The translations under genes were made by a program, and so were the position numbers. DNA of 64,000 bases from Thioalkalivibrio sp. AKL19 (GTDB taxonomy: Bacteria > Pseudomonadota > Gammaproteobacteria > Ectothiorhodospirales > Ectothiorhodospiraceae): NCBI RefSeq assembly GCF_000420165.1, contig NZ_ATUK01000016.1:1-64000 (forward strand). Direction: 5' to 3'. The notes below the pieces were generated by a model. That model was given only the letters and a program-made list of their open reading frames with translations. It made no database searches and was not told the origin of the DNA. Of the stretch, positions 11,882 to 27,252 are shown piece after piece. The stretch's first letter is position 1. Each line of letters begins with the position of its first letter.

Positions 11882-14335
11882 TTACGGGTTCGCTCGGCGC
11901 CGGGCGGGCGCGGCAGGGTGGCGGGCGAAGTGCTCGGGCGCATGTCGCCGGACGTGATCGGCGAGGGCATCGGCCGGTAAGGGCGGACTGCACAGATAGC
12001 CCTGCCAGGCGTCGCAGCCCTGGGAGGCGAGAAATCCGAGTTGTGGGGCGCTTTCCACCCCCTCGGCGAGGACGTCCAGTCCGAGGTTGTGGGCCATGCC
12101 GATGATGGTCACGGCCAGCTCGGCGTCGTTGCGGTCCTCGGGAAGGTCGCGCACGAAGGTCTGGTCGATCTTCAGGATGTCGATCGCGAATTCCTTCAGG
12201 TACGCCAGCGACGAATAGCCAGTGCCGAAGTCGTCGATGGCCAGTGCCACGCCCAGCTGCTTGAGCTGTTGCAGGGTGCCGCGGGTTGTGTCGGTTTGCT
12301 CCATCAGGGTGCTTTCGGTGAGTTCCAGGATCAGGCGCCGGGCCGGAAGGCCGGTCGTCTGGAGGACCTGGCGGACCTGCTGTTGCAGGCCTGGTGCGGC
12401 GACCTGGCGGGCCGAAAGGTTGACCGAGATCTCCAGCGGCGGGAGCCCGGCCCGGTCCCAGTCCACGACCTGGCGACAGGCTTCGTGCAGGACGAACGCG
12501 CCAACATCCGCGATCAGCCCGGTTTCCTCGGCCAGTGGGATGAACACGTTCGGCGCGATCAGACCGCGTTCCGGGTCGCGCCAGCGCACCAGTGCCTCGA
12601 CGCCGGTGATGGCCCCGGACGTTGTCTTGATCTGGGGCTGGTAGAACACCTCCAGTTCGCCCTGTGTCAGCGCGCGGCGCAGCCGGTTCTCGGTCTCCAG
12701 GCGCTGATTGGCGGCATCGGTGAGGGCGGTGCGGTAAAAACGGAAGGTGTTGCGCCCGGCGTCCTTGGCCTCGTACATCGCGGCGTCGGCCTGCGTAATC
12801 AGGTCGCCGGCCTCGGTGGCATCGTCGGGGAACAGGGCGATGCCGATGCTGGCGCCCACCTGGAGGTCGTTCCAGCCCCCGACCGCGAAGGGTTCGGCGA
12901 TCAGCGCCAGGAGCTGGCGGGCACGGGCCTCGAGTTCGCGGTGTTCGGCGACGTCGTCGATGATCGCGATGAACTCGTCCCCCCCGATGCGTGCAACGGT
13001 TCGGGCCTCGAAGCGCGTCGTGAGGCGCTCCCCCAGGATCTGCAGGAGGTCATCTCCCACGCGGTGACCCAGGCTGTCGTTGATGGTCTTGAAGCGGTCC
13101 AGGTCCACGAACAGGATCGCCAGTGGCCCCTTGCCATGGTGGGCTTGTTCCATGGCCTCGTTCAGCTGTTGCTGCAGCAGCGTACGGTTGGGCAGGCCGG
13201 TGAGCGGATCGTGTCCCGCCTGATAGGCCAGTTGAGCCTCGTGCGAGCGCAGGCGGGCCTCGGCCGCGCGGCGCTGTTCGACCTCCAGCGACAGACGGGT
13301 ATTGAGACGCCGGTAGTAGAGCGCCGCCAGGCCACTCAGCAGGAGCAGGCCGGCCAGCAGCCCGAGCAGGACCTCCGGGCGGGCCTCCCAGTAGGCGCGC
13401 AGGTCGATGACCACCGGACGGTCATACGGCGGGCGTCCCAGGTCCTCCAGCAAGGCATGCACGGAGGCGTAGGACAGCGGCGCCGACCAGCCGTGGTAGC
13501 CACCGGCGCGCGCCGCGGGATGGTCCGCGGGAAGGCTGAGCAGCGCGATACTGACGGCCTCGGCCAGGTGGTCCGGCGTGTGTTCGAGACGCGAGAACGG
13601 CCATTCCGGGTAGAGCCGGGTGGAGTGGGCAAACGGGAATCCCGCGATCTCCCGGGGTTCCAGCACCCGCAGGGTGTCGGGGGCCAGATTGCCCGAGCGC
13701 AGCTGTGCTTCGAGCACGCCCGTGCGCACGATACCGGCATCGGCCTGCCCGGCCAGCAGCCCTTCGAGTACCCGGTGGTGAGGCATGCCGGTGAAGTCCA
13801 GCGAGGTCAGGTCTTCCCGGGGGTCCACACCGGCGCTGCGCAGGGCCTCGTGGGCGGCCAGCCAGCCCCCCAGGGAGTCCTCGTTCACGGCGAGGAGGCG
13901 CTGGCCCCGCAGGTCGGCGAGCGACTGGAGATCCTCGCGCTCGTCGAGGACCAGGATGGTCCCGCCGAACTGGCGGATGGGCTGGCCCTGTTCCTCGACG
14001 ATCAGGGTCGCCAGGCGAGTGATGCCCTGTTCGGCCTCCAGGCGCACGTAGTGCCCCGTGTTGGTCAGCACAAGATCGATGTCCCCCGCGGCGACGGCCT
14101 GGTCGAGCTCCGGATAGTTCAGGGCGCGGATGCGGAACTCGGCCGCGTCGATCTGCGTGCTCAGATACGCGGCGGTGGGCTGCCACTGATTCGCGGTCTC
14201 TTCGGCATCGCGAAAGGCCAGCACGCCGATGGTGTATACGCTGGCGCCGTCACTATTTGCCGCCATTGCGGGGGCGGCAACGGACAGGCTGATCAGCAGG
14301 ATCAGCAGACGGGGCAAGGTGGATGGATGGCGCAT
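11882..14335 (-). CDS. GGDEF-EAL protein with periplasmic PhnD-like binding domain
   Basis: An 817-residue membrane-bound cyclic-di-GMP enzyme. In order: a signal peptide or first membrane helix (residues about 8-25), a periplasmic domain of the PhnD/phosphonate-binding type (YTIGVLAFRDAEE, DLVLTNTGHYVRLEAE, LRGQRLLAVNEDSLGGW, VLEGLLAGQADAGIVRTGVL), a membrane helix near residue 335, GGDEF near 448 (RIGGDEFIAI) and EAL near 578. The EAL domain keeps EAL, ELTES, IDDFGTGYSSL, KID and AEGVES, so phosphodiesterase activity is likely. GGDEF is intact, but I see no RxxD inhibitory site before it. The domain order suggests that a small periplasmic ligand tunes c-di-GMP turnover. Start 14335 gives the signal peptide; the frame extends 42 codons further upstream without one. 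Confidence 0.9.
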   Translation of the reverse strand: MRHPSTLPRLLILLISLSVAAPAMAANSDGASVYTIGVLAFRDAEETANQWQPTAAYLSTQIDAAEFRIRALNYPELDQAVAAGDIDLVLTNTGHYVRLEAEQGITRLATLIVEEQGQPIRQFGGTILVLDEREDLQSLADLRGQRLLAVNEDSLGGWLAAHEALRSAGVDPREDLTSLDFTGMPHHRVLEGLLAGQADAGIVRTGVLEAQLRSGNLAPDTLRVLEPREIAGFPFAHSTRLYPEWPFSRLEHTPDHLAEAVSIALLSLPADHPAARAGGYHGWSAPLSYASVHALLEDLGRPPYDRPVVIDLRAYWEARPEVLLGLLAGLLLLSGLAALYYRRLNTRLSLEVEQRRAAEARLRSHEAQLAYQAGHDPLTGLPNRTLLQQQLNEAMEQAHHGKGPLAILFVDLDRFKTINDSLGHRVGDDLLQILGERLTTRFEARTVARIGGDEFIAIIDDVAEHRELEARARQLLALIAEPFAVGGWNDLQVGASIGIALFPDDATEAGDLITQADAAMYEAKDAGRNTFRFYRTALTDAANQRLETENRLRRALTQGELEVFYQPQIKTTSGAITGVEALVRWRDPERGLIAPNVFIPLAEETGLIADVGAFVLHEACRQVVDWDRAGLPPLEISVNLSARQVAAPGLQQQVRQVLQTTGLPARRLILELTESTLMEQTDTTRGTLQQLKQLGVALAIDDFGTGYSSLAYLKEFAIDILKIDQTFVRDLPEDRNDAELAVTIIGMAHNLGLDVLAEGVESAPQLGFLASQGCDAWQGYLCSPPLPADALADHVRRHAPEHFARHPAAPARRRANP

Positions 14336-14462
14336 CGGCAAGAGCCTACTATGCGAAGGGACTTGCCGTACACGTTGGGGCGCGAACGGGCGCTGGGGTA
14401 CCGGCTCGCGGGAAGGGGCGGTCACGCGGCGCTTCTGGCCGCCGCGTGACCGATGGGGCACG

Positions 14463-14909
14463 CTACCAGCTCTTGTAGGGCAGGAACTTGCCGTTCCAGG
14501 TGATCTTCACACGGTCGCCCTTCGGGTCCTCGACCTTGTCGATGTCCATGGTGAAGTCGATGGCGCTCATGATGCCGTCACCGAACTTCTCGTGGATCAG
14601 CGCCTTCATGGTGTCGCCGTAGACGTTGATCGCCTCGTAGAAGCGGTAGATCACGGGGTCCGTCGGGATGGACTTGTCCCAGGTCTTGTGCGGGAAGGCC
14701 TGCAGCGCCTGCGAGACCTCGGGGCCGAGGCCGAGGAAGGTCGCCAGCTTGTCGGCCTGGTCGTCCTCCAGGTGGTTCATGCCGTAGCAGGCGGAGGTCA
14801 CGTAGACCTCGTGCAGCCCGGTGGCCTCGGCGATCGCGGCCCAGGTGGTTCCGCGGTTCTCCTTGGCCTCGAGGATGGTGGTGGTCATGGCGCTTTTGCT
14901 GAGACTCAT
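14463..14909 (-). CDS. cynS: Cyanate hydratase (cyanase)
   Basis: Cyanase catalyses bicarbonate-dependent decomposition of cyanate to ammonia and carbon dioxide in the cytoplasm. The 148-residue protein matches CynS along its length (E. coli 156 aa). It has an N-terminal helix-turn-helix-like region (TTWAAIAEATGLHEVYVTSACYG), then DPVIYRFYEAINVYGDTMKAL and HEKFGDGIMSAIDF. These hold the catalytic Arg and Glu (YRFYE) and the Ser in MSAIDF. It is the last gene of a minus-strand operon, 34 bases after an importer ATPase gene. That order supports import and breakdown of cyanate as a nitrogen source or for detoxification. Confidence 0.96.
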   Translation of the reverse strand: MSLSKSAMTTTILEAKENRGTTWAAIAEATGLHEVYVTSACYGMNHLEDDQADKLATFLGLGPEVSQALQAFPHKTWDKSIPTDPVIYRFYEAINVYGDTMKALIHEKFGDGIMSAIDFTMDIDKVEDPKGDRVKITWNGKFLPYKSW

Positions 14910-14943
14910 CTGAATGCTCCTTGAACGATGAAAAGGGTCGGGA

Positions 14944-15855
14944 TCAGACCGCGCGGACCATGCGCGGGCCGGGTTCCGGTTCGGCCTCCGACTTGGCCGG
15001 GTTGACGATGCGTGGGGTGTGACGCGGGTTGTCGCCGCGCGCGGCGGCCTCCTGGGCCTTGGCCGACATCACCTTGGCGCCCTCGACCAGGAAATCGACC
15101 AGGTGGTTGCGGATCGGGTAGTACGCCTCTTCCTGGTGGAGTGTGGCCCGGGTGCGCGGCCGGGGGATGTCGATCTTGACCGACTCGGCGACCTGGGCAT
15201 GCGGCCCGTTGGTCATCAGCAGCACGCGGTCGGCAAGCAGGATCGCCTCGTCCACGTCGTGGGTGATCATGAACACGGTCTGGTGGGTCTCCGACCAGAT
15301 CTTCAGCAGCTCCTCCTGGATGACCCCGCGGGTCAGGGCGTCCAGGGCTCCGAACGGCTCGTCCATCAGCAGCAGCTTGGGTTCGATGGCGAAGGCCCGG
15401 GCGATGCCGACGCGCTGGCGCATGCCGCCGGAGAGTTGCGCGGGCTTGCGGTCCATGGCGTGGTCCAGCCCGACCATGTGCAGGTAGCGCTCGGCGTGTT
15501 CCAGGCGTTTCGCCTTGCTCCAGTTCGGCCAGCGGGCGCGCACCGCGAACATCACGTTGTCGCGCGCCGACAGCCAGGGCAGCAGGCTGTGGTTCTGGAA
15601 GATCACGCCCTGGTCGAGGCTGGGGCCGGTGATCTCCTTGTTGTCCATGATCACGTTGCCGTCGGTGGGCGTGGCCAGTCCGGCGAGCACGTTGAGGATG
15701 GTGGACTTGCCGCAGCCGGAATGCCCGATCAAACAGACGAATTCGCCCTTGTTGATGGTCACGTCCACGCCCTCGAACACGGTCATCAGGTCGCTGGAAT
15801 CGGGCTGCGGGAAGCGCTGGCTCAGGTTCTCGATCTCGAGGAATCCCTTGCTCAT
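14944..15855 (-). CDS. ABC importer ATPase, nitrate/cyanate/taurine type (first system)
   Basis: The cytoplasmic ATPase subunit (303 aa) of a NrtD/CynD/TauB-type importer. Visible motifs: Walker A GHSGCGKST, Q-loop in VIFQNHSLLPW, signature LSGGMRQRV, Walker B LLLMDEPFGALD and the switch His in MITHDVDEA. A Glu/Pro-rich C-terminal tail of about 40 residues follows the domain. The start at 15855 has AAGGAG upstream; a longer frame from 15930 would overlap the permease gene. It lies 28 bases downstream of its permease and 34 bases upstream of cynS. Cyanate is the obvious substrate candidate, but this family also carries nitrate and sulfonates. Confidence 0.9.
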   Translation of the reverse strand: MSKGFLEIENLSQRFPQPDSSDLMTVFEGVDVTINKGEFVCLIGHSGCGKSTILNVLAGLATPTDGNVIMDNKEITGPSLDQGVIFQNHSLLPWLSARDNVMFAVRARWPNWSKAKRLEHAERYLHMVGLDHAMDRKPAQLSGGMRQRVGIARAFAIEPKLLLMDEPFGALDALTRGVIQEELLKIWSETHQTVFMITHDVDEAILLADRVLLMTNGPHAQVAESVKIDIPRPRTRATLHQEEAYYPIRNHLVDFLVEGAKVMSAKAQEAAARGDNPRHTPRIVNPAKSEAEPEPGPRMVRAV

Positions 15856-15883
15856 GTTTGGTCTCCTTTGGGGCTGCGCCGAC

Positions 15884-16732
15884 TCAGTCGGCGTAGCGCA
15901 CGAATTTGGTGGCCTGGGCGAGGGAGGCATCCAGCAGGAAGCCGACGATGCCGATCATGATGATCGCGAAGATCACGCTGGCGAGATCGAGGTTGTTCCA
16001 CTCGTTCCAGATGTAGTAGCCGATGCCGGTGCCGCCCACGAGCATCTCGGCGGCGACGATGACCAGCCAGGCGATGCCGATGGAGATGCGCATGCCGGTG
16101 AGGATGGTCGGGGCCGCGGCGGGCAGGATCACGGTGAACGCGGTGCGCAGGTTCGACAGTTGGTGGGTCTTGGCTACGTTCAGCCAGTCATTGCGCACCG
16201 AGGCCACGCCGTAGGCGGTGTTCACCAGCATCGGCCAGATCGAGCAGATGAAGATCACGAAGATCGCCGACATGTTCGAGTCGCGGATCACGAACAGGGC
16301 GAGCGGCATCCAGGCCAGGGGCGAGATCGGCTTGAGGATCTGGATGTACGGATCGAACGCCTTGTTCAGCAGCGGCGACATGCCAATCACGAAGCCGAGC
16401 GGGATGGCGATCAGCGCGGCCAGGGCAAAGCCCAGCAGGACCCGGTAGATCGAGTAGGCCAGCTGGATGCCGATCCCCTTGTCGTTCGGGCCCGCGTCGT
16501 AGAACGGGTTGCTCAGTTCGCCGAAGGCGTGGCTGAACACCTGGGTGGGGGCCGGGATGCCGCTGCTGGAACTGCGATCGGCCCCGCCCCCCATCAGCTG
16601 TTCGTACTCGCTCAACTCGCCCTGCTGGGGTGCGATGACCTCCGGGGCGGTGGCCAGCTGCCACACGCCCAGGAAGACCACGAGCATCACCAGCGAGAGG
16701 ACGGTCGCCCGGAAGTTGAGATTGCTCAACAT
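15884..16732 (-). CDS. ABC importer permease, nitrate/cyanate type (first system)
   Basis: Inner-membrane permease (282 aa) of the binding-protein-dependent family used for nitrate, cyanate and sulfonates. About six hydrophobic segments are visible, beginning with VLSLVMLVVFLGVWQLAT. The EAA-type coupling loop lies in the central part (NVAKTHQLSNLRTAFTVILP, then AAAPTILTGMRISIGIAW). An insert between the first two membrane segments (residues about 35-85, Ser- and Gly-rich) would be periplasmic and is typical of the NrtB/CynB branch. The gene lies three bases after its binding protein and 28 bases before its ATPase, so the three are one transcript. Confidence 0.9.
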   Translation of the reverse strand: MLSNLNFRATVLSLVMLVVFLGVWQLATAPEVIAPQQGELSEYEQLMGGGADRSSSSGIPAPTQVFSHAFGELSNPFYDAGPNDKGIGIQLAYSIYRVLLGFALAALIAIPLGFVIGMSPLLNKAFDPYIQILKPISPLAWMPLALFVIRDSNMSAIFVIFICSIWPMLVNTAYGVASVRNDWLNVAKTHQLSNLRTAFTVILPAAAPTILTGMRISIGIAWLVIVAAEMLVGGTGIGYYIWNEWNNLDLASVIFAIIMIGIVGFLLDASLAQATKFVRYAD

Positions 16733-16735
16733 GGC

Positions 16736-18190
16736 TTAGCTCCTGCGGATGTCGAAGCTGTCGAGATAGCCTTCCGGGTCGGTGTAGTCGAACACCTTGC
16801 CCATGATCTCGAAGTTCTTGTAGGTGTCACTGGGCGCTTCGTAGCCCAGCTCGGTCATCACTTCGGCGCATTCGCTGGCGAGGAAGACGTCTTCCGCGAG
16901 GCGGTTGTAGTCGAAGTCGCGGTCCACATAGCCCCAGCGCTTCATCTGGGTGAGGATCCAGGTGGCCATCGAGTGCCAGGGGAAGGGGTCGAAGTCGATC
17001 CGGTGCGGGTCGTTCTTGACCTCGCCCAGCCCGTCCGCGTAACGCCCGGTCAGCACCTGCTCGACCACCGATTGCGGCTGGTTGAGATAGGCACGCGGGG
17101 AGATGGCCTCGGCGATCTCGGCGCGGTTGTTGATATCCGAGCTGTACTGGGTGGCCTCGATCAACGCGCGGAACAGGGCACCGAAGGTGTTCGGATGCTC
17201 GTCGGCGAAGGCGGCCGAGCAGGCGAAGGCGCAGCACGGGTGGCCGTCCCAGATCTCCTTGGTCAGCATGTGAATGAACCCGATGCCGTCCCAGACCGCG
17301 CGCTGGTTGAAGGGGTCGGGGGCCAGGTAGCCGTCGACGTTCTCGGCACGCAGGTTGGCGACCATCTCCGGCGGCGGGACGACGCGGATACTGATGTCGC
17401 GATCGGGATCCAGCCCGTGTTCCGCGACGTAGTAACGCAGCAGGAAGTTGTGCATGGAGTACTCGAAGGGCACGGCGAAGGTGAAGCCCTTCCAGTCCTT
17501 GGGATCGCGCTTGTCCTTGTGCTTGTTGTGCAGGGTGATCGCCTGGCCGTTGATGTTCTCCACCGCCGGCATGATGTAGTGCTCGCGCGAGGAGCCGGAG
17601 CCCAGGGTCATCGACAGCGGCATCGGCGAGAGCATGTGCGAGGCGTCGTACTCACCGGACAGCGACATGTCGCGGGCCACCGCCCAGCCGGCGGTCTTGA
17701 TCACGTCGACATCCAGGCCGTGGCGCTCGTAGAAGCCCATGGGGTGGGCCATGATGATCGGCGTGGCGCAGGTGATCGGGACGAAGCCGACGCGCAGCTT
17801 GGTCTTTTCCAGAGGCCCGCCGTCCTTGATTGCGGCCTTGACCTTGTCCAACGGCAGGATGGAGCCCAGGGCCGCGGCCACCGTGCCGCCCCCGATCATC
17901 TGCAGGAAGCGGCGGCGGTTGATCTCGTTGTGGCCGAACATGCCGCGCACGATGGCGCTCTCCACCGCGCGATCGACCATGGCCTCGTCGCTCAGGTCCT
18001 CGCCGGTGGCGTGGGCATCGGCCTGTACGGGCTCATGGGTGGCGCGTCGTTCCAGTTTCTCTTCCAGGTCCGGGGACGCGGTGTCGAAGCAGCTGCAGCT
18101 GCCGGGACCGGTGTGCCCGTGGCGGCAGCTGGAGCCGTGGCGCAGGTCGGCGTTGGCGTCGAAGGGATCGTGAAGACTCTTGGTCGGCAT
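16736..18190 (-). CDS. Tat-exported substrate-binding protein, nitrate/cyanate type (first system)
   Basis: The periplasmic binding subunit (484 aa) of the first importer, of the NrtA/CmpA/CynA type (LRVGFVPITCATPIIMAHPMG, GYLAPDPFNQRAVW, RIDFDPFPW). A twin-arginine motif (NRRRFLQM) lies near residue 90 and is followed by a hydrophobic stretch, indicating Tat export. The roughly 88 residues before it are unusual: they contain a Cys/His-rich patch (Cys22, His24, His26, Cys32, Cys34) that could bind metal in the cytoplasm before export. The binding domain has GHPCCAFAC, where NrtA-type proteins usually have HPEK. The start at 18190 is supported by AGGAG. Substrate is not proven; cyanate is suggested by cynS in the same operon. 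Confidence 0.85.
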   Translation of the reverse strand: MPTKSLHDPFDANADLRHGSSCRHGHTGPGSCSCFDTASPDLEEKLERRATHEPVQADAHATGEDLSDEAMVDRAVESAIVRGMFGHNEINRRRFLQMIGGGTVAAALGSILPLDKVKAAIKDGGPLEKTKLRVGFVPITCATPIIMAHPMGFYERHGLDVDVIKTAGWAVARDMSLSGEYDASHMLSPMPLSMTLGSGSSREHYIMPAVENINGQAITLHNKHKDKRDPKDWKGFTFAVPFEYSMHNFLLRYYVAEHGLDPDRDISIRVVPPPEMVANLRAENVDGYLAPDPFNQRAVWDGIGFIHMLTKEIWDGHPCCAFACSAAFADEHPNTFGALFRALIEATQYSSDINNRAEIAEAISPRAYLNQPQSVVEQVLTGRYADGLGEVKNDPHRIDFDPFPWHSMATWILTQMKRWGYVDRDFDYNRLAEDVFLASECAEVMTELGYEAPSDTYKNFEIMGKVFDYTDPEGYLDSFDIRRS

Positions 18191-18257
18191 GGTCGGCTCT
18201 CCTCGTGGGTCGAATCGATGCGGGCATCGTTGCCGCGCATGTCGAGGGTCATTGCAG

Positions 18258-18356
18258 GTGCCATGCCAAGCGTGGGGAATGGGCCGCCAGGGCGGCGCGC
18301 GAGTGCCGGGAGATCGGACCATTGGTCGACATTGTCGACGAAGGGGACAAAAGGTC
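18258..18356 (-). promoter_or_regulatory. Candidate activator sites and -24 element upstream of the first importer
   Basis: Between the regulator gene and the binding-protein gene lie GGACC (18316), a palindrome gtcgacattgtcgac (18325-18339), GGACAA (18345-18350) and GGTCC. GGACAA and TTGTC also appear as repeated boxes upstream of the divergent osmC-like operon. On the minus strand TGGCAC at 18258-18263 could be a -24 element, but the -12 position reads GA instead of GC. Weak as a sigma-54 promoter; the shared boxes are the better evidence. Confidence 0.35.
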
Positions 18357-18378
18357 CGCTGGTGTCTGAGCGGTGGGC

Positions 18379-20040
18379 CTAAGTGGTTTCTATGCCGAGC
18401 TTTTTCAGGCGATAGCGCAATTGCCGCGGGGTCAGGCCCAGGTCCATCGCGGCGCGGGTCTTGTTGCCCCCGGTTTGCTCGATCGCGCGCTTCAGGCGCT
18501 CCGCCTCGGTGGCCTGCACGCGCTGATACGGCCGCACCGCGCTGGTGCAGGACGCGCCGGAAGAGGGCAGGGTTCGGGGCTCGTTGTGCCGCGATGGTGC
18601 CGGTGCATGCTCGTCGCGGAGGCCGTGCCGCTCGGCCTCGAACGGGCTGATGCGGGATTCCTCGTGCAGGATCTCGTCGATCAGCGGCGTGCCGATGCGG
18701 CCATCGGTGGACAGCAGTACCGCGCGCTCCAGCACGTTCTCCAGCTGGCGGATGTTGCCGGGCCAGTCGAAGGCCTCCAGGCGTTCCAACACGCCCTCGT
18801 CGACGACCACGTTCCAGCCGTGGAGGTGGGTGTAGCGGTCGAGGAAGTGGCGGGTGAGCAGGCGGATGTCGCTGGCGCGGTCGCGCAGGGCCGGCATGTG
18901 CAGCGGGATCACGTTCAGGCGGTAGAACAGGTCGAGCCGGAAGTTCCCGGCATTCACCGCGGCCTGCAGGTTCTGGTGGGTCGCGGCGATGATGCGTACG
19001 TCCACCGGGAGGTCGCGGTTGCCGCCAATGGGCTGGACCACCCGCTCCTGCAGCACGCGCAGGATCTTCGACTGCAACGCCTCCGGCATGTCGCCGATCT
19101 CGTCCAGGAACAGCGTGCCGCCGTCGGCCAGGGCGATCTTCCCGGTCTTGGCGCTGGAAGCACCGGTGAAGGCCCCCTTTTCGTGCCCGAACAGTTCGGA
19201 TTCCAGCAGGTCCGCCGGGATGGCGGCGCAGTTGATGGAGATGAACGGCTTCGCGTTGCGCTGGCTGATCCGGTGGATCATGCGCGCGATCTTTTCCTTG
19301 CCGGTGCCGGAGGCCCCGGTCACGAGCACCGTGGCCTGGGTGTACGCGATGCGGTGGACCTGCTTGAGGACGTGCCGCAGGGCCGGGCTCTCGCCGAGGA
19401 TGCCGTACTGCCCGCCCTGGGTATCCAGGGCGCTCTTCAGATAGCGATTCTCCGAGACCAGTTCGGCGGTGCGTTCGGCGATCAGCTGATGGATGCGCAG
19501 GACCTGGCCGATCATGCTGGCGACGACGCGCAGCAGGTTCAGATCGTCCTGGAACTGGCGCGAGCGGCGGCGCAGCCGGTGGACGCCCAGCACGCCGATG
19601 GCGTGCTCGTCCTGGACGATGGGCACGGCGATGTAGGCGACGGTCTCCTGCGGCAGGGTGGAACGGTCAATGGCGCGCGCGAGGTATTCGGGCTCGTTGT
19701 CGATGTCCTGGATCAGGGCGATCTGGCCGGTCTTCATGACGCGCCCGGTGACACCCTCGCCGAGGCTGTAGCTGCCGCGGTCGCGCTCGGCATCGGTCAG
19801 GCCGTAGGCGTGGCGGATACGCAGCTGGCCACTGTTCGGATCCGGCAACAGGACCCGGCCGCGGTTGAGTCCCAGTAGCTGGGACATCATCCCGAGGATG
19901 CGGTAGATCGCGGCATCCGGGTCGCCGGAGCGGCCCATCAGCTTGGCAACCTCCAGCAGCAGGGTGATCTCCTGCTCTCGGGTGGCCAGGTCGGGTGCCG
20001 CCGAATCGGGTACGGGTTGCGATGCCATGCGAGGGCTCAT
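18379..20040 (-). CDS. Sigma-54-dependent transcription activator, NifA-like (GAF-AAA+-Fis)
   Basis: A 553-residue enhancer-binding protein. An N-terminal GAF domain (residues about 30-180) is followed by a linker helix and the AAA+ domain. The latter has Walker A (GASGTGKE), the sigma-54 contact loop GAFTGAS, Walker B (GGTLFLDEIGDM) and the arginine-finger region (VRIIAATHQ.L). The C-terminus is a Fis-type helix-turn-helix (NKTRAAMDLGLTPRQLRYRL). It lies between two minus-strand importer operons and near a divergent operon with a -24/-12 promoter, so it probably activates one or more of these. The lack of a receiver domain and the presence of GAF suggest direct small-ligand control. The start at 20040 is preferred; a second ATG follows four codons later. 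Confidence 0.92.
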   Translation of the reverse strand: MSPRMASQPVPDSAAPDLATREQEITLLLEVAKLMGRSGDPDAAIYRILGMMSQLLGLNRGRVLLPDPNSGQLRIRHAYGLTDAERDRGSYSLGEGVTGRVMKTGQIALIQDIDNEPEYLARAIDRSTLPQETVAYIAVPIVQDEHAIGVLGVHRLRRRSRQFQDDLNLLRVVASMIGQVLRIHQLIAERTAELVSENRYLKSALDTQGGQYGILGESPALRHVLKQVHRIAYTQATVLVTGASGTGKEKIARMIHRISQRNAKPFISINCAAIPADLLESELFGHEKGAFTGASSAKTGKIALADGGTLFLDEIGDMPEALQSKILRVLQERVVQPIGGNRDLPVDVRIIAATHQNLQAAVNAGNFRLDLFYRLNVIPLHMPALRDRASDIRLLTRHFLDRYTHLHGWNVVVDEGVLERLEAFDWPGNIRQLENVLERAVLLSTDGRIGTPLIDEILHEESRISPFEAERHGLRDEHAPAPSRHNEPRTLPSSGASCTSAVRPYQRVQATEAERLKRAIEQTGGNKTRAAMDLGLTPRQLRYRLKKLGIETT

Positions 20041-20107
20041 GCAGAAAGCCTGCCAGCGCCGAAACGACGTTCTGAAGGGCGTTCGGGCGTATCTGGCTGG
20101 GTCGGGA

Positions 20108-20180
20108 CGAGGCGGTTGCCTCGAGGTGGGGCAGGGCCTTGCACTGTTGGGTTGCGCTTGCCCGTATTGTGTGCGCACAA
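20108..20180. promoter_or_regulatory. Palindromes upstream of the sigma-54 activator gene
   Basis: A perfect 14-base palindrome, ttgtgtgcgcacaa, lies at 20167-20180, and a 6-bp hairpin (cgaggc / gcctcg) lies near 20107-20122. Both are in the 185-base gap upstream of the activator gene (minus strand). They could be operator sites for autoregulation, but there is no direct evidence. Confidence 0.35.
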
Positions 20181-20206
20181 AAGGCCCGGCCAGAAACGGC
20201 CGGGCC
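20179..20206 (-). terminator. Rho-independent terminator of the second importer operon
   Basis: A 9-bp GC stem (ggcccggcc / ggccgggcc) with loop agaaac. On the minus strand it is followed by TTTT. It sits 20 bases past the stop of the second permease gene, separating that operon from the activator gene. Confidence 0.75.
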
Positions 20207-20225
20207 TGGACATGGACTGGAGGGA

Positions 20226-21065
20226 TCAGCCCTCCGCGTGATAGCTGCTGCGCTTGATCAGGCGCACGCAGATGGCGTCGAGCATATAGCCGATGATGCC
20301 GATGACCAGCACGAAGGCGGCCAGTTTGTCGTACTCCAGGGTGTCGCGGGCATCGTTGATGGCGTAGCCCAGCCCCGAGGTGACGCCCAGGTACTCGGCC
20401 GGCACCAGCACGATCCAGGCCACACCCACCGCCAGGCGAATCCCGGCGAACACATCCTGGGCGATCGCGGGCATCACGATGTAGCGCAGGGTGTGGTACG
20501 GATTGGCGCCCAGGTTGTTGCCCACCTTGAGCCACATCGGATCGATCCGTTGCACCCCGTGCGCCGTGGCGTAGGTAATGGGCCAGACGGCCGCGATGGC
20601 AATCAGGAAGATGATGGCCGCATCCCAGGTGGCGAAGGCCAGTACCGCGACCGGCATCCAGGCCAGCGGCGAGATCATCCGCAGGAACTGGAACGGCACG
20701 TGGGTGACCTGCTTCAGCGTCAGGAAGTAGCCGATCATGACGCCCAGTGGCACGCCGATGGCAATGGCGTAGGCCAGGCCCCAGCCCACGCGGTACAGGC
20801 TGGACTCGATCGGCGACCACACGGCCCCGGAGCTGACGATGTCCCAGAAGGCCGCCAGCGTGGGCCCCGGAGCGAAGCTCGCGAAGGCCATCGTGTCCTC
20901 GTTGTTGCCGATGGCCCAGCCGCCCCAGTACCACAGGGCGAACAGGCCGGCGATGCCCAGCGCCGGGTACTGCAGCGCCCGGCGCGCTTGGTCCGCGAAC
21001 CGCAGCAGCGGCATGAGCCGCTCCACGGTCGCGGTGTCGACGGAGAGTGTGGCTTCGCGGTTCAT
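20226..21065 (-). CDS. ABC importer permease, nitrate/taurine type (second system)
   Basis: Inner-membrane permease (279 aa) of the NrtB/SsuC/TauC family, with six hydrophobic segments (from LGIAGLFALWYWGGWA to FVLVIGIIGYMLDAI). The coupling loop region holds NNLGANPYHTLRYIVMPAIA and DVFAGIRLAVGVAW. Its start overlaps the stop of the upstream binding-protein gene (ATGA), and a terminator follows its stop, so it closes this operon. It is paralogous to the permease at 15884-16732 but lacks that protein's long periplasmic insert and is clearly diverged. Two different importers in one locus suggest two related substrates or two affinities. Confidence 0.9.
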   Translation of the reverse strand: MNREATLSVDTATVERLMPLLRFADQARRALQYPALGIAGLFALWYWGGWAIGNNEDTMAFASFAPGPTLAAFWDIVSSGAVWSPIESSLYRVGWGLAYAIAIGVPLGVMIGYFLTLKQVTHVPFQFLRMISPLAWMPVAVLAFATWDAAIIFLIAIAAVWPITYATAHGVQRIDPMWLKVGNNLGANPYHTLRYIVMPAIAQDVFAGIRLAVGVAWIVLVPAEYLGVTSGLGYAINDARDTLEYDKLAAFVLVIGIIGYMLDAICVRLIKRSSYHAEG

Positions 21066-22345
21066 AGGACCACCACCTCCTCGCGGGCATAGGGCGAATC
21101 CATGTCCACGCCCGGGGCGCCCTGCCAGGCGGTGTGTTTTTCCATCGCCTTGCGCACGAAGTCGTAGTTCACCAGGTCGTCACTCACGAACTCCGGGTCC
21201 AGGCCTTCGAGGAAGGTGGTGTCGCCGCCGACCAGCGTCTCGTTCATCGCTCCGACCAGCATCTTGGTGGCCGACGGGTAGGGCCAGGGCGAGAAGTCGA
21301 TGCGGCCGTTCTCCCATTCGGGGTGACGGATCGCGCCGCTGTCGGCGTAGGTGCTGTCGTCGTGGTAGTTCGTCATCGCGCGTTCCACCACGTTGGCGGG
21401 CATCGGGAGATACCCCTTGCCATCGCGCGAGAGCATGGTGGCGACACTCTTCTTGTCTTCCTGGATCGTGCCCTGGGCGCGGACCACGGCGTTCATCACC
21501 TTCTGGGTCCACTCCGGCTCGCGGTCGGTCAGGCGCTCGTTCATGCACACCACGCAACAGGGGTGGTTCTTCCAGATGTCGCCGGTAAAGCGCAGCACGT
21601 TGCCGCGCGCCAGCAGCTCGCCGGCCGCGTTGAACGGCTCGGCCACGATGTAGGCATCAATGGAGCGCGCGGCCAGCGCCGGGGGCATGTCCGGCGGCGG
21701 CATGATCATCAGGTTGACCTCGTGCGCCTCCAGGGCCGAACCCTGGTCGCGGATCACCGGGGTCAGGCCGGCGTCGCGCAGGGCCATCTGCATGACCACG
21801 TTGTGCATGGAGTACCAATAGGGCACGGCCACGCTCTTGCCGCCGAGATCGGCGAAGGTCTGTACATCCACATGGCGGCCGGTCACTACGGCCGAGCCGT
21901 TGGTGTGGGCCCAGGACATGATCTTCACCGGGAAGTCATTCTGGTAGCGCATCCACAGCGGGATCGGCTTGAGCAGGTGCACGAGGTTGAAGCGGTTGGC
22001 GGCGAAGGACTCGATCAGCGGCGACCAGCCGCGAATCAGGGTCGGGTCGGCGACCTCCAGCCCTTCGTCCTCGAAATAGCCCTCGGAGTGGGCGACCAGC
22101 AGGGCGGCCGCGTCGGTGATCGGGATGTAGCCGATGCGCACGACGCCGTCGAAGTCGCTGACGACGCCTTCGGGCTCCTCGAGGCTTCCGGGTTCGGCCC
22201 CGAACAATGAACCGGGCAGGGCAAGCCCGCTCCCGGCCAGGCCGCCGACGGCGGCGGTACGCAGGAAGTTGCGACGGGAGAAGCTGCGATCCAGCAGCCG
22301 GTCCAGTTCGCTGTCGATGTCGTGGTGGTTGTCGCAGTTGCACAT
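21062..22345 (-). CDS. Tat-exported substrate-binding protein, nitrate/taurine type (second system)
   Basis: Periplasmic binding subunit (427 aa) of the second importer. Residues 23-29 (SRRNFLR) are a twin-arginine motif, followed by a hydrophobic segment (AAVGGLAGSGLALPG), so it is Tat-exported. The mature part has VRIGYIPITDAAALLVAHSEG, KIMSWAHTNG, YIVAEPFNAAGE and RIDFSPWPYPS, as in NrtA/CmpA-type proteins. Before the Tat motif are Cys2, Cys4 and two His. The domain has NHPCCVVC, matching the HPCC in the first binding protein. The start at 22345 is preferred for its GAGGA site; an ATG at 22393 overlapping the ATPase stop would add 16 residues. Substrate unknown. Confidence 0.85.
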   Translation of the reverse strand: MCNCDNHHDIDSELDRLLDRSFSRRNFLRTAAVGGLAGSGLALPGSLFGAEPGSLEEPEGVVSDFDGVVRIGYIPITDAAALLVAHSEGYFEDEGLEVADPTLIRGWSPLIESFAANRFNLVHLLKPIPLWMRYQNDFPVKIMSWAHTNGSAVVTGRHVDVQTFADLGGKSVAVPYWYSMHNVVMQMALRDAGLTPVIRDQGSALEAHEVNLMIMPPPDMPPALAARSIDAYIVAEPFNAAGELLARGNVLRFTGDIWKNHPCCVVCMNERLTDREPEWTQKVMNAVVRAQGTIQEDKKSVATMLSRDGKGYLPMPANVVERAMTNYHDDSTYADSGAIRHPEWENGRIDFSPWPYPSATKMLVGAMNETLVGGDTTFLEGLDPEFVSDDLVNYDFVRKAMEKHTAWQGAPGVDMDSPYAREEVVVL

Positions 22346-22389
22346 GGTGGCGGTTCCTCGCTCGGGTTCGGGGTAGTGGTGGAGGTGGA

Positions 22390-23244
22390 TCATGCGGCGC
22401 GTACGCGCGCCCGGGATTCGGATGAAGAAGACTCGTCTTGTTCGCTTTCGGTATCCGGCGTCGGGGCTTCGGCCTCCGCTGAACCCTTGTCAGTGGCCGG
22501 GGTGCGGGTGGCGCCGAAGTAGCCCATCAGTTCGGCCTTGCGGTCGACGAAGGCCTGGCTGTTGCGATCGCGCGGGTGGGCAATGTCGATCGGCAGTTCG
22601 GCGGTGATGGTCCCCGGGTTGGAGCCCATGACCAGCACGCGGTCGGCCATGGCGACGGCCTCTTCGATGTCGTGGGTGACGAACACCACCGAGATCCCGC
22701 GTTCCCGGGCCAGGCGGGTGACTTCGTCCTGCAGCGCGACGCGGGTAAAGGCGTCCAGGGCCGAGAACGGTTCGTCGAGCAGGAGCAGCTCGGGGTCGGT
22801 GGCCAGGCTGCGGGCCAGGGCGACGCGCTGTTGCTGGCCGCCGGAGAGCGACTGCACGTTGACCTCGGCCTTCTCGCTCAGACCCACGGTCTCCAGCAGC
22901 TGGTCGATGCGTTCGCGCATGTCGGTCTTGCGGCCCTGGAAGATCAGGCCCAGCGAGGCGTTCTTGCGCACTGTCATCCAGGGGTAGAGCGAGGGCTTCT
23001 GGAACATCATGTTCCAGCGCGGGCTCGGCTTGATGACCTGGTGGCCGTTGATTCGCACGCAGCCTTCGCTGGGCAGCAGCAGGCCCGCGAGCATGTGCAG
23101 CAGGGTGGACTTGCCGCAGCCACTCTGGCCGATCAGGGCGACGGTCTCGCCCGGTGCGACGGTGACCTGGATGTCCTTGAGCGTGGGGGCTTCCTGCCCG
23201 GGATAGTGGTGGGTGATGTAGTCGATGGAGATGGCGGCGCCCAT
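22390..23244 (-). CDS. ABC importer ATPase, nitrate/taurine type (second system)
   Basis: Cytoplasmic ATPase (284 aa), first gene of the second importer operon. Motifs: Walker A GQSGCGKST, Q-loop MMFQKPSLYPW, signature LSGGQQQRV, Walker B LLLLDEPFSALD and switch His VTHDIEEA. The last 45 residues are acidic and Ser-rich (TPDTESEQDESSSSES) and probably disordered. The start at 23244 has GAGGG upstream; ATGs at 23271 and 23307 are possible. Gene order is ATPase, binding protein, permease. The divergent plus-strand promoter region begins about 200 bases upstream, so both directions may share control sites. Confidence 0.9.
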   Translation of the reverse strand: MGAAISIDYITHHYPGQEAPTLKDIQVTVAPGETVALIGQSGCGKSTLLHMLAGLLLPSEGCVRINGHQVIKPSPRWNMMFQKPSLYPWMTVRKNASLGLIFQGRKTDMRERIDQLLETVGLSEKAEVNVQSLSGGQQQRVALARSLATDPELLLLDEPFSALDAFTRVALQDEVTRLARERGISVVFVTHDIEEAVAMADRVLVMGSNPGTITAELPIDIAHPRDRNSQAFVDRKAELMGYFGATRTPATDKGSAEAEAPTPDTESEQDESSSSESRARVRAA

Positions 23245-23459
23245 GGCGTTTCCCTCTTGACCTTCGTTCATGAGCCGCCGGATGGATCGGATCGGCGGCG
23301 CGTTCAAGGGGGTTCCTTACAAGGGGCGTGCCAAACCCGTCGTGTTGCCCGGGAATTTCGTCTGGACCGGGGGCGAAACGGCGCGCTGGTGCGCAATACA
23401 GGGAGCGGCGAACGAGGCATCGCAGAAGCGGGGGGGATCCGGCGTGGGGGGCGAGAAGT

Positions 23460-23513
23460 GGACAATCCGGACAATGCGGACCAGTTCGAGTGGACAAAGC
23501 GGACGGATTGTCC
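23460..23513. promoter_or_regulatory. Repeated GGACAA boxes, likely enhancer sites for the sigma-54 activator
   Basis: GGACAATCCG (23460-23469) and CGGATTGTCC (23504-23513) form a perfect 10-base inverted repeat 34 bases apart. Two more GGACAA copies lie between them (23469 and 23492). The group sits 70-120 bases upstream of a -24/-12 promoter, the usual distance for a NifA/NtrC-type enhancer. Confidence 0.6.
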
Positions 23514-23581
23514 GACGGGGGGATGGGTTGGATTCGGGTGGCCCAGCTGGAAATGGCTTTGTGGTGCGGTCCGCACGGTTT

Positions 23582-23597
23582 TGGCACGGCTTCTGCA
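23582..23597 (+). promoter_or_regulatory. Sigma-54 (-24/-12) promoter of the osmC-like operon
   Basis: TGGCACG, four bases, then CTGCA: one mismatch from the consensus TGGCACG-N4-TTGCA, with correct GG-to-GC spacing. It lies about 65 bases before the OsmC-family start codon and downstream of GGACAA repeats. Confidence 0.75.
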
Positions 23598-23660
23598 CCG
23601 GGATGGACGACCCGGTCGAATGCCGGGGATCCACGAATCCCAACTATCAGGAGCACCACC

Positions 23661-24209
23661 ATGTCTGCAGCCGAAGCCACCACCTCCCTGTCCATCAACG
23701 CCCTGGAGCCGATCGACCAGGACGGCCTCAATAACCTCGCCGCCAAGGGCAAGGCCAACCCCGAGAGCGTCGTGACGCTTAAGGCCACCACGGTCTGCGA
23801 GGGCAAGTTCCGCAACCTGACCTTCGTGCGCGACCTCGAGGCCCACGTGATCGACGAGCCGCCGCATCTGCTGGGCGACGACACCGCGCCGAACCCCTCC
23901 GAGGCCGCTTTGGCCAGCCTCGGCGCCTGTCTGTCGGTCGGCATGCATGCCAACGCCATCGACCGTGGCATCACGCTGACCAAGCTCGAGTTGACCCTGG
24001 AGGGCGATATCAACGTGACCGCCGTATGGGGCGTCGGGGATACCGATGTGAACAAGCACCTCGGCTTCTCCGATATCCGCGTCAAGGCGAATCTGGAAGG
24101 GGATGCCAGCGAGGAACAGCTGAAGGAGCTGGTCGCCCATGCCGACTTCTGGTCGCCGGTGGCCAACACCATGCGCAACCCGGTCAAGCTCAGCGTCGAA
24201 CTGGCCTGA
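23661..24209 (+). CDS. OsmC/Ohr family protein
   Basis: A 182-residue OsmC-like protein, first gene of the sigma-54 operon. Family members reduce organic hydroperoxides or handle reactive thiol compounds with two cysteines. The first Cys is present in SEAALASLGACLSVGM. At the second site the usual CPV reads SPVANTMRNPV, with Trp before it, so the second thiol is missing. This agrees with the OsmC subgroup that is not a classical two-Cys peroxidase. The start is set by AGGAG ten bases upstream. It is followed after 34 bases by an acyl-CoA-dehydrogenase-like flavoprotein, which suggests a role in the same oxidative pathway. Confidence 0.85.
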   Translation: MSAAEATTSLSINALEPIDQDGLNNLAAKGKANPESVVTLKATTVCEGKFRNLTFVRDLEAHVIDEPPHLLGDDTAPNPSEAALASLGACLSVGMHANAIDRGITLTKLELTLEGDINVTAVWGVGDTDVNKHLGFSDIRVKANLEGDASEEQLKELVAHADFWSPVANTMRNPVKLSVELA

Positions 24210-24243
24210 TTCCGGTCCTTCTGCCCAACGGGAGTAAACCCCA

Positions 24244-25383
24244 ATGCTTGAAACCCGCACTCACGACGTGACGGGGGTGTCGCCGGCCGCAGGGCCGGCG
24301 GATGCCGATGCCGCGCTGCAGGCGCTGGTGGAGCGCGATCTGGCTCCGCTGACCGCCCGTATCGACCGCGAAGGCCTGTACCCCGAAGACTTCCTGCGCG
24401 AGGCCGGTCGCCTCGGCGCCTTCAACCGCCACCTGGCCAGCCAGAACGCCAGCGGCACCACGGATATTGCCAGTGCCATCCGCGCGACCGAGGTGATCTC
24501 GGCCGAGTGCATGACCACCGGCTTTGTTGCCTGGTGCCAGAACGCCTGTGCCTGGTACGTGGAGAACAGTGCCTCGGACACCCTGAAGCGCGAGGCCCTG
24601 CCGAGGCTGGCGAATGCCGAGGCACTGGGTGCCACCGCGCTGTCCAATCCGATGAAGTGGTTTGCCAACATCGAGGACCTCAAGCTCTCCGCCGAACGTG
24701 TCGACGGGGGCTATGTGGTCTCCGGTGCGCTGCCCTGGGTATCCAACCTGGGCGAGGACCACTACTTCGGGGCGATTTTCCGCACCACCGGCACGAACCC
24801 GCGGCCGGTGATGGCACTGATCAACTGCTCTGACCCCGGGTTCAGCCTGACGGCCTGCCCCGAGTTCACCGCGCTGGAGGGTTCGCGCACTTTCGGCTGC
24901 CATTTCGATCGCGTGTTCGTGCCCGATGAGCACGTGCTGGCCGACGCCCTGCCCGAGTACATCCGCCGGATCCGACCGGGGTTCGTGCTGCTGCAGATGG
25001 GCATGGGTCTGGGGCTGATCGATGGTTGCATCCAGACCATGCGCGAGGCCAACGAGACGCTGGCCCATGTGAATGGCTATCTGGATGACCAGGTGGGCGA
25101 GCTGGAAGAGGCACTGGAGGATGGTCGTTCGGCCTGTTATGCCTTGTCGGAGACCCCCTTTGATGAATCCGAGCGCTTCTTTGCCGATGTCCTGCAGATG
25201 CGCCTGACCGGTTCCGAGTTGTCGCTGCGTGCGTCGCAGTCGGCATTGCTGCATGCCGGGGCCCGGGGGTATCTGGCGAATGCCGCCGCCCAGCGCAAGC
25301 TGCGCGAGTCGTACTTCGTGGCCATCGTGACCCCGGCGATCAAGCACCTGCGCAAGGAGCTGGCGCGGATCCACGCGCACTAG
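24244..25383 (+). CDS. Acyl-CoA dehydrogenase-fold flavoprotein (possible monooxygenase)
   Basis: A 379-residue protein with the acyl-CoA dehydrogenase layout: N-terminal helices (LREAGRLGAFNRHL, CMTTGFVAWCQNACAW), a middle beta domain (LGATALSNPMKWF, GGYVVSGALPWVSN, FDRVFVPDEHVL) and C-terminal helices ending GARGYLANAAAQRKLRESYF. It lacks the usual catalytic-Glu and GTNEI region of true dehydrogenases. This fits the branch that includes flavin-dependent oxygenases and desulfurisation enzymes (DszC/SfnB-like). Rubredoxin and rubredoxin reductase, encoded two genes later, could supply electrons. It may oxidise a small nitrogen or sulfur compound brought in by the neighbouring importers; that is inference. 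Confidence 0.72.
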   Translation: MLETRTHDVTGVSPAAGPADADAALQALVERDLAPLTARIDREGLYPEDFLREAGRLGAFNRHLASQNASGTTDIASAIRATEVISAECMTTGFVAWCQNACAWYVENSASDTLKREALPRLANAEALGATALSNPMKWFANIEDLKLSAERVDGGYVVSGALPWVSNLGEDHYFGAIFRTTGTNPRPVMALINCSDPGFSLTACPEFTALEGSRTFGCHFDRVFVPDEHVLADALPEYIRRIRPGFVLLQMGMGLGLIDGCIQTMREANETLAHVNGYLDDQVGELEEALEDGRSACYALSETPFDESERFFADVLQMRLTGSELSLRASQSALLHAGARGYLANAAAQRKLRESYFVAIVTPAIKHLRKELARIHAH

Positions 25384-25438
25384 TCCACCACCCACGGTCG
25401 GGGCCTACCGGGGCCCCGCACCGAACGAAGGAATCGTC

Positions 25439-25819
25439 ATGCTGGAAACCATTACACGACTGGATCCCGAGACCGCGGTCGCGACCCTGAAGGAGGCGAT
25501 TGACGCCCAGGGCCTCAAGCTGGTCTCCCACATCAACGGCCAGGCCAATGCCGCGAAGATCGGGGTCGAGGTCCCGACCGACCAGATCCTGGAGGTTTTT
25601 CATCCGAGCTATGCGGTGCGTGTCTGGGAGGCCTGCAAGCCAGCCGGCATCGACATCCCCCTGCGAATCCACGTCTCCGGCGATGGCGAGATGCTGCGCG
25701 TCAGCGCGCGCTCGGCGCGGGACGTGTTCGCGCCGTGGGCCAACCCCGATCTGGACGCCATCGGATCCGAGCTGGACCCGAAGCTGAAGGCCATTCTCGA
25801 TGCCGTGGAGGCCGCGTGA
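25439..25819 (+). CDS. DUF302 family protein
   Basis: A 126-residue cytoplasmic protein that looks like a DUF302 member ([19 protein letters not shown] early, then [23 protein letters not shown] and [19 protein letters not shown]). The biochemical function of DUF302 is not established. AAGGA lies before the ATG, and its stop overlaps the start of the rubredoxin fusion gene (TGATG), so it is the third gene of the operon. No signal peptide and no cysteine pair are present. Confidence 0.7.
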
Positions 25820-27252
25820 TGAGCACCGAAACCGACGAGTTCAAGCGCTATATCTGCAAGGTCTGCGGGTATATCTACGACGAGGCCAAGGGCGACCCGG
25901 ATTCCGGTCTGGCCCCGGGGACCCGCTTCGAGGACATCCCCGACGACTGGTATTGCCCCGACTGTAATGTGACCAAGGCGGATTTCACCGCCCTGGAACC
26001 GCGCGCCGAGACCGCGGACGCCGGTGCCGCCGCGATGGCCTGGAGTGCCGGCGCCGGCGCGGCCGATCCGGACGCGGTGGTGATCGTCGGCGGCGGCATG
26101 GCGGGCTGGGCCCTGGCCGAGGCCCTGCGCGAGCGGGATCCGCGGCGCCCGATCCGTCTGCTGACCGCCGATTCCGGTGATTACTACACCAAGCCGCGGA
26201 TCTCCAATGCCTTTGCCCGGGGCGTCGCGGTCGCGGATCTGGTCGAGGAGACTGGCGTGGCGCGGGCGGCCCGGCTCGGTATTGACCTGATGCCGTTTGT
26301 CCGTGTGCTGGATGTCCAGCGGGCGCAGCAAAGAGTCATCACTGCCCGTGGGGGCGTGCCGTACGGCCAGCTGGTGCTGGCCACCGGGGCGCGTCCGCGG
26401 CAAATGGCGTTCCCGGGTGGGGCCGGGGCGCCGCTGTCCGTGAACACGCTGGAAGACTACCGCGCGCTGCGCGCGGCCCTCGAGGCGCGGGAAGAGTCAC
26501 CGACCCATACCCGTGTGGCCATCATAGGCGCCGGCCTGGTGGGCTGCGAGCTGGCCGACGACCTGGCGACGGGTGGCCATCCGGTGGCATTGATCGAATG
26601 CGCGTCACGGCCGCTGCCGAATCTGCTGCCCGAGTCGCTGAGCGACGATCTGGAGAAAGCGCTGGCCGACCACGGTGTGCAGTGGCATACCGGGGCCACG
26701 GTCGAGCGCGTCGAACCGGTTGCCGAGGGTACGGCGCGAGTCGCGCTCGCCGATGGCGAGGCGGTGGAGGCCGAAGTGGTCATCAGCGCGCTGGGGCTTG
26801 TGCCCAACCGCGAACTGGCCGAGCGTATCGGGCTCGCCTGTCACCAGGGGATCGAGGTGGACGCGCTGCTACGCACGACCGACCCGGCGATCTTTGCCCT
26901 GGGCGATGGCTGCGAGTTCGAGGGGCAGCTGCGGCCCTATGTGGAGACGCTGCGCGGGCAGGCGGCGGCGCTGGCGCGAACCCTGGCGGGCGAGGCGACG
27001 GTGTACCGGCCGGATGCCGGTGTCGTGCAGGTCAAGACGGGCAGCCTGCCGTTGAACATCTGCCCGCCGCAAATGGGCGGCGGCGAATGGCTCGAGATCG
27101 TGGTCGATGCCGAGGGGCGCCACCTGGAGTATCACGTGAACGGGCGGCTCGCCGGGTTTGCCCTGTCCGGTCGCCATGCACGGCGGGCGCGCGAACTGGA
27201 GACGCGTCTGGGCGAGCCGGCGGCGGATACCCGGACCCGGCTGGCTTCCTGA
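25819..27252 (+). CDS. Rubredoxin fused to NAD(P)H:rubredoxin reductase
   Basis: A 477-residue electron-transfer fusion. Residues 1-55 are a rubredoxin with both CxxC pairs ([11 protein letters not shown] and [13 protein letters not shown]) that bind one iron. A short Ala/Gly linker leads to a pyridine-nucleotide-disulfide-type reductase. It has an FAD site ([17 protein letters not shown]), an NAD(P) site ([17 protein letters not shown]) and the second FAD motif ([15 protein letters not shown]). Thus NAD(P)H electrons reach rubredoxin within one chain. In the operon the likely acceptor is the acyl-CoA-dehydrogenase-like flavoprotein, or an oxygenase or desaturase elsewhere. The start is fixed by the overlap with the upstream stop. 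It is the last gene before a hairpin. Confidence 0.93.

Follow-up and report, generated by a model that had tools for sequence, protein, structure and literature searches.

A cyanase-linked flavoprotein-OsmC-rubredoxin gene island of Thioalkalivibrio sp. AKL19 as a candidate thiocyanate-to-cyanate system

A compact gene island of the soda-lake sulfur bacterium Thioalkalivibrio sp. AKL19 (positions 14463-27252 of the window, i.e., the whole 64,000-nucleotide stretch analysed here: contig NZ_ATUK01000016.1, positions 1 to 64,000, assembly GCF_000420165.1) combines cyanase and two importers with a divergent operon for a flavoprotein of acyl-CoA-dehydrogenase fold (ACAD), an OsmC-fold protein, a DUF302 protein and a rubredoxin-reductase fusion. 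On balance it is probable, judging from the genes and their relatives, that this island encodes an oxygen-dependent thiocyanate-to-cyanate system that feeds cyanase for nitrogen. Chances are about even that its centre is an undescribed flavoprotein-OsmC-rubredoxin thiocyanate oxygenase, i.e., a third route besides thiocyanate hydrolase and the copper thiocyanate dehydrogenase (TcDH), with OsmC as sulfur acceptor rather than peroxidase, with its own regulator and importer, and with a distribution in Proteobacteria and cyanobacteria. The observations behind this reading are the gene content, its co-occurrence in other genomes, promoter-like sites conserved in Thioalkalivibrio, the missing dehydrogenase glutamate of the ACAD, an invariant OsmC cysteine, and separate clades of the activator and of the second substrate-binding protein (SBP2).

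The cyanase, the two importers, the sigma-54 activator and the divergent operon, all named in an earlier note made from the sequence alone, were indeed found in the island by Pfam and NCBIfam profile searches (profile models and values in brackets). Its cynS is the sole cyanase gene detected in the genome.

14463-14909, minus strand: cynS, cyanase (PF02560, 3.7e-38, plus CYNS_N)
14944-18190, minus strand: importer 1 (NtrCD/NtrB/NMT1_2 matches), made up of the next three genes
14944-15855, minus strand: cynD-type ATPase (TIGR01184, above cut-off)
15884-16732, minus strand: cynB-type permease (TIGR01183, above cut-off)
16736-18190, minus strand: cynA-type substrate-binding protein, probably for cyanate (NMT1_2, 7.4e-89)
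18379-20028, minus strand: GAF-AAA-HTH_8 sigma-54 activator (NifA model, 3.3e-140, below the cut-off of the model)
20226-23244, minus strand: importer 2 (NMT1_2 type, profile matches), made up of the next three genes
20226-21065, minus strand: permease (BPD_transp_1, 1.7e-18)
21062-22345, minus strand: SBP2, proposed ligand thiocyanate (NMT1_2, 1.7e-40)
22390-23244, minus strand: ATPase (ABC_tran, 3.7e-37)
23661-24209, plus strand: OsmC-fold protein with one invariant cysteine (Cys90)
24244-25383, plus strand: ACAD-fold flavoprotein, proposed thiocyanate oxygenase
25439-25819, plus strand: DUF302 protein (PF03625, 1.6e-06)
25819-27252, plus strand: rubredoxin fused to NAD(P)H rubredoxin reductase (PF00301, PF07992 (Pyr_redox_2), PF18113 (Rbx_binding))

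The ACAD is 98% identical to those of T. versutus AL 2, T. sp. ALMg11 and T. sp. ALE14. For a wider comparison, 80 loci were retrieved by ACAD similarity alone (the best 80 of 570 relatives, many of them from metagenome-assembled genomes and on short contigs), and their neighbours were identified in blastp comparisons with the proteins of the window and some further ones, at scores above 40 bits. Co-occurrence of the divergent operon with an importer had been set beforehand as the test of the proposal, and it proved strong: a substrate-binding protein (SBP) of either type is encoded at 68 of the 80 loci. OsmC is present at 76 loci and directly adjoins ACAD on the same strand in 65. Furthermore, cynS was found at 53/80, rubredoxin at 51/80 (57 if reductase-only matches are counted, some only ~30% identical), a CynF-like activator at 45/80 and DUF302 at 18/80. 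Among the 45 loci of at least 19 kb outside Thioalkalivibrio, the counts are 45 for OsmC, 44 for SBP, 35 for cynS and 30 for rubredoxin (36 with the reductase alone). The module occurs in Proteobacteria and cyanobacteria, also on plasmid records: those of Marinobacter, Acetobacter and Caballeronia carry it with cynS and activator, those of Pseudosulfitobacter and Methylocystis have OsmC, ACAD and importer, and a Moraxella record has the importer and no cynS in the stretch. Two extra neighbours are the commonest: a TetR regulator (21 loci by clustering, plasmid loci included; 14/80 by blastp) and a rhodanese (also 21 loci by clustering). The latter is a two-domain protein with the loop CFKG[AS]RASN and was counted at 25 of the 80 loci, leaving out L104, a match without this loop. 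An open reading frame (ORF) judged by eye to encode an outer-membrane-like protein, without Pfam match, lies in L073 (19042-20319, minus strand) and could be an outer-membrane channel for the substrate; its relatives, pooled with those of the alginate-export-type porin of the Acetobacter cluster, occur at 6/80 loci.

The controls were 20 cynS loci from 19 gammaproteobacterial genomes lacking the ACAD clade; they were drawn from 31 such places in the class sample described below, and three of them are shorter than 16 kb. None of the 20 has OsmC, rubredoxin, DUF302 or rhodanese, while CynA and a CynF-like activator were each found at 6 and an SBP2 relative at one. At the 46 cynS loci with ACAD outside Thioalkalivibrio, OsmC is present in 45, rubredoxin in 32, rhodanese in 18 and DUF302 in 8. 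This enrichment is significant for OsmC (p 5e-16), rubredoxin (4e-8) and rhodanese (6e-4), and not for DUF302 (p 0.09). Chance neighbourhood is thus rejected: it is ACAD, not cyanase, that the genes for sulfur and redox chemistry accompany. If a pathway yields cyanate and delivers sulfur to a sulfurtransferase, thiocyanate cleavage is the simplest reading of it. Because the dedicated rhodanese and OsmC accompany the flavoprotein and not cyanase as such, the evidence on the imported compound, which the earlier note had left unnamed, points to thiocyanate.

At the genome level, ACAD nearly implies cyanase, and not the reverse. In the order sample (47 genomes; 25 had some ACAD match, of which 8 weak ones with 22-25% identity were set aside, leaving a clade of 17), cynS is present in 17/17 ACAD-clade genomes vs 6/30 others (Fisher 4e-8), in one of these six with an internal stop; all 17 cynS genes lie on the ACAD contig, within ~11 kb. 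With the clade cut at E 1e-60, the class sample (276 genomes) gave 11/11 vs 29/265 (Fisher 2e-10; 9 close on one contig) and the phylum sample (397 genomes) 14/17 vs 74/380 (Fisher 1e-7; 11 close on one contig); note that some genomes recur among the three samples and in the set of 80 loci, and that the Fisher values ignore relatedness. Such a one-way dependence is expected if the ACAD pathway makes cyanate. It bears also on the idea that two unrelated systems are merely neighbours here, namely plain cyanate assimilation by cynABDS and an independent OsmC/ACAD stress operon. Clusters of cynABDS are indeed known alone, as described in PMC6627978 and as in our control loci L115, L119, L126 and L133. 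Co-occurrence across phyla already made this idea unlikely, and together with the one-way dependence and the activator clade (see below) it leaves it highly improbable.

The ACAD fold of the 24244-25383 product was confirmed, and the earlier statement that it lacks the usual catalytic motif holds true. At the two known positions of the catalytic glutamate, which were located by their distance from the conserved R-E/R-D motif with the SCAD/MCAD/IVD motifs as guide, the family has threonine (Thr363, in 28/28 sequences) and isoleucine (Ile243, in at least 90%). The fusion protein possesses both rubredoxin CxxC pairs, a FAD/NAD reductase and a rubredoxin-binding domain. Threonine and isoleucine in place of the glutamate, together with co-encoded rubredoxin and reductase, would suit an oxygenase. 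SfnB and DszC are ACAD-fold monooxygenases of sulfur chemistry, and the flavoprotein resembles them as an ACAD-type protein without dehydrogenase base that would act in sulfur chemistry. However, rubredoxin/reductase rather than a flavin reductase adjoins it, and at E 0.001 the SfnB model TIGR04022 matches nothing in the genome (it matched 9 of 14 control genomes, never above cut-off); it is also absent from the seven NCBIfam families that ACAD matches. An SfnB-type sulfone/sulfonate enzyme was therefore rejected, and with it the comparison with the Sfn family that the earlier note had drawn. Its broader proposal, in which a small compound is taken up and a flavoprotein that has its own source of electrons oxidises it to release cyanate, is supported by the comparative co-occurrence.

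The OsmC protein shares the fold and the cysteine at the peroxidatic position (Cys90) with Ohr/OsmC peroxidases. It had been described as a one-cysteine protein, while in fact two cysteines are present (46 and 90), of which only Cys90 is invariant (24/24 rows). The second, resolving cysteine of the peroxidases is replaced by serine (Ser165) in 24/24. Neisseria and Moraxella have an AhpD-like CxxC protein where OsmC would stand; a Neisseria gonorrhoeae record (L032, 5276-7044) keeps this protein, ACAD (44% identical) and rubredoxin. The peroxidase fold and this replacement could speak for detoxification, in which flavoprotein and OsmC would remove a toxic oxidant or by-product (hypothiocyanite or cyanide-derived thiocyanate) and cyanase would mop up cyanate; the Neisseria record, in which no cynS was found, nor a related importer in the stretch read, would agree with that. 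We consider this explanation unlikely, as the frequent SBP genes and the sigma-54-type sites in front of the importer and cyanase operons fit nutrient scavenging better.

The two importers fall apart in a tree of substrate-binding proteins, which was built from 50 of the 88 ACAD loci plus the 20 control loci and retained 61 rows; the program gave a warning that long branches meet in it. CynA of the window has as its five nearest rows the CynAs from plain cyn clusters, at a fork (92/83) that does not reach the starred level, whereas the SBP2 side consists of 24 rows, 22 from ACAD loci, the window and one plain locus (100/100). L132, the plain locus on this side, combines cynS with an SBP2-type importer and has no ACAD or OsmC, so that such importers also occur apart from the ACAD module. 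SBP2 of the island further hits the aliphatic-sulfonate-binding model TIGR01728, with 94 bits against a cut-off of 163.5. This match, and the fact that the module is tied to cyanase and sulfurtransferase while the substrate is only deduced, leave some room for another C-N-S compound (an isothiocyanate, a thiourea-type compound or selenocyanate) that would still yield cyanate and sulfur or selenium. Such a substrate appears rather unlikely: cyanase handles free cyanate, the importers closely resemble anion importers of the nitrate/cyanate type, and thiocyanate is the simplest anion that gives cyanate upon removal of sulfur.

In a tree of activators drawn from 26 ACAD loci and the 20 control loci, of which 34 rows remained, the window protein belongs to a starred set of 11 rows, ten ACAD-linked ones and itself (100/99). 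Five of the six activators of plain clusters form another set (100/99), joined by the second activator of Vreelandella utahensis; this species (L042) has cynS in duplicate and an activator of either type, the one grouping with plain-cluster activators and the other ACAD-linked. The activator of the island is therefore not an ordinary plain-cluster CynF.

All three operons are preceded by -24/-12 sites, which with the candidate activator sites are the following:

23582-23597, plus strand: site of the OsmC operon, TGGCACGGCTTCTGCA, 1 mismatch
23318-23333, minus strand: site of the importer 2 operon, TGGCACGCCCCTTGTA, 1 mismatch
18253-18268, minus strand: site before cynA, TGGCATGGCACCTGCA, 2 mismatches
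18325-18357, no strand assigned: candidate activator site, GTCGACATTGTCGAC and GGGGACAAAAGGTCC, by eye, like the blocks at 23459-23513
23459-23513, no strand assigned: candidate activator sites, TGGACAATCCGGACAAT and GGACAAAGCGGACGGATTGTCC, by eye, block largely conserved in Thioalkalivibrio loci

The clear promoter that had been noted before the OsmC operon stands: this site and that of importer 2 are recognisable in 7/7 sequences (the window and six Thioalkalivibrio loci, L035-L040), and the cynA site in 6/6 of the Thioalkalivibrio comparison. GGACAA/TTGTCC half-sites form blocks before OsmC, with similar blocks before cynA; they are largely conserved in these loci and, judged by eye, are candidate activator sites. 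A scan for sigma-70 promoters and terminators found nothing above chance. The cynABDS genes and the OsmC operon appear to share the promoter type and candidate activator sites.

This apparent sharing bears on the possibility that the compound is a sulfur source, as in sulfonate/sulfone systems, with cyanase only clearing waste. The rhodanese neighbours are compatible with such scavenging, and so is the plasmid pANL of Synechococcus elongatus, which is reportedly sulfur- and CysR-regulated and which has a related importer beside cysK. Besides this importer, which is of SBP2 type, the stretch in question (L034, 7388-11847) encodes a divergent ACAD (29%) and an SCO4226-like protein, with cysK and chromate-transporter genes nearby; a Synechococcus cysR mutant is reportedly unable to use thiocyanate as sulfur source. 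For the island itself, sulfur scavenging seems distinctly unlikely, considering that the host genus comprises sulfur oxidisers, that cynABDS and the OsmC operon look alike in promoter type and candidate activator sites, and that cyanase is strongly enriched in ACAD-clade genomes.

The favoured thiocyanate reading can be put as a pathway, of which we infer every step except the cyanase reaction, including the substrate, the use of O2, the direction of electron flow, the roles of OsmC and DUF302, and the regulation. SCN- would enter through importer 2. Electrons from NADH would pass through the rubredoxin-reductase fusion and its rubredoxin to the ACAD-fold flavoprotein, and the reduced flavoprotein would oxidise the sulfur of SCN- with O2 (to OSCN- or an equivalent). 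The thiol of OsmC Cys90 would accept this sulfur, and hydrolysis would free cyanate and leave a persulfide on OsmC. Many relatives would pass this persulfide to their dedicated rhodanese; in the island, DUF302 or the sulfur-oxidation machinery may receive it. Cyanase converts cyanate to NH3 and CO2. Importer 1 would also take up external cyanate, and the activator, related to CynF and distinct from it, would switch on all three sigma-54 operons.

Several points weigh against this reading. Three of the 17 ACAD-clade genomes of the phylum sample have no cynS, and neither has the Neisseria record. Of the ten cynS-less ACAD loci of at least 19 kb outside Thioalkalivibrio, nine were checked genome-wide; cynS is encoded elsewhere in six of these genomes and was not found in three (two Halomonas, one Azospirillum). 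The rhodanese accompanies ACAD at a minority of the loci, and a search of the window's own genome for a dedicated one gave a single weak partial match (34%), so that this candidate was rejected. DUF302 was likewise rejected as carrier of an invariant cysteine, its Cys66 being present in 14/19 rows. The -24/-12 motif is not enriched in the window (36 matches with at most 2 mismatches vs 30.4 expected); the count was dropped as statistical weight, and the case for the three sites rests on position and conservation. The link of the gene set to thiocyanate is drawn from genes, and the use of O2, like the part of OsmC as sulfur acceptor, is a proposal. Finally, a reductant is in principle not required for oxidising SCN- to cyanate, so that rubredoxin could be an electron acceptor instead.

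Around the island, a GGDEF-EAL protein with an N-terminal phosphonate-binding-type periplasmic domain is encoded immediately 3' of cynS (11882-14461, minus strand), and a tyrosine integrase with arm-binding domain lies nearby (10395-11690, minus strand); the boundary of a mobile element may be close. On the other side, an ORF of 359 amino acids (27497-28576, minus strand) equals in length an ORF of L036, which by motif resembles YgfZ, and is probably the real gene there; an overlapping plus-strand ORF of 494 amino acids has no Pfam match.

Among known systems, the closest to the cyanate part is the cynFABDS cluster of Pseudomonas pseudoalcaligenes CECT5344, which comprises CynABD, CynS, a putative sigma-54 promoter before cynA and an adjacent sigma-54 activator (PMC6627978). 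The island shares these elements, including the order cynA-cynB-cynD-cynS behind a sigma-54-type site. However, it adds the OsmC/ACAD/DUF302/rubredoxin operon and a second importer, and its activator lies on the same strand as cynA instead of being divergent from it, and outside the plain-cluster clade.

For thiocyanate itself, TcDH of Thioalkalivibrio is described as a copper enzyme for which a Tat signal is predicted and whose acceptor is cytochrome c (PMC5744179, PMC5778177). The proposed net outcome is alike, in that thiocyanate would become cyanate while its sulfur stays at the sulfane level, whereas the window has a flavoprotein beside cyanase, with no evident signal peptide by eye. Thiocyanate hydrolase hydrolyses thiocyanate to carbonyl sulfide (COS) and ammonia (PMC5328954); the use of thiocyanate would be common to both, and the route proposed for the island is not hydrolysis to COS. 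NHase_alpha gave no match in the window genome, but none in the control genomes either. Use of thiocyanate as nitrogen source via cyanate was first proposed with an uncharacterised enzyme (PMC6172326, PMC5778177). The enzyme later found for the cyanate route is the copper TcDH, reported from few lineages, and Thioalkalivibrio with the TcDH route are reportedly devoid of cyanase activity. In a thiocyanate-fed community, cyanase transcripts were present and TcDH transcripts were not found (PMC6172326). Guyparkeria sp. SCN-R1, for which TcDH and a cyanase operon are reported (PMC6504805), carries the ACAD module as well (L054). A description of the gene set was not found in the open-licence literature (preprints were outside this search).

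If the reading is correct, the module would provide candidate genes for the thiocyanate-to-cyanate step, whose enzyme is unknown in many bacteria, and would do so in many genomes: 570 stretches encode an ACAD relative, the module having been looked at in the best 80 of them. It could serve as a marker for communities that clean up thiocyanate and cyanide. Furthermore, it would assign new functions to subfamilies of OsmC and ACAD that are labelled "OsmC family protein" and "acyl-CoA dehydrogenase" in the records.

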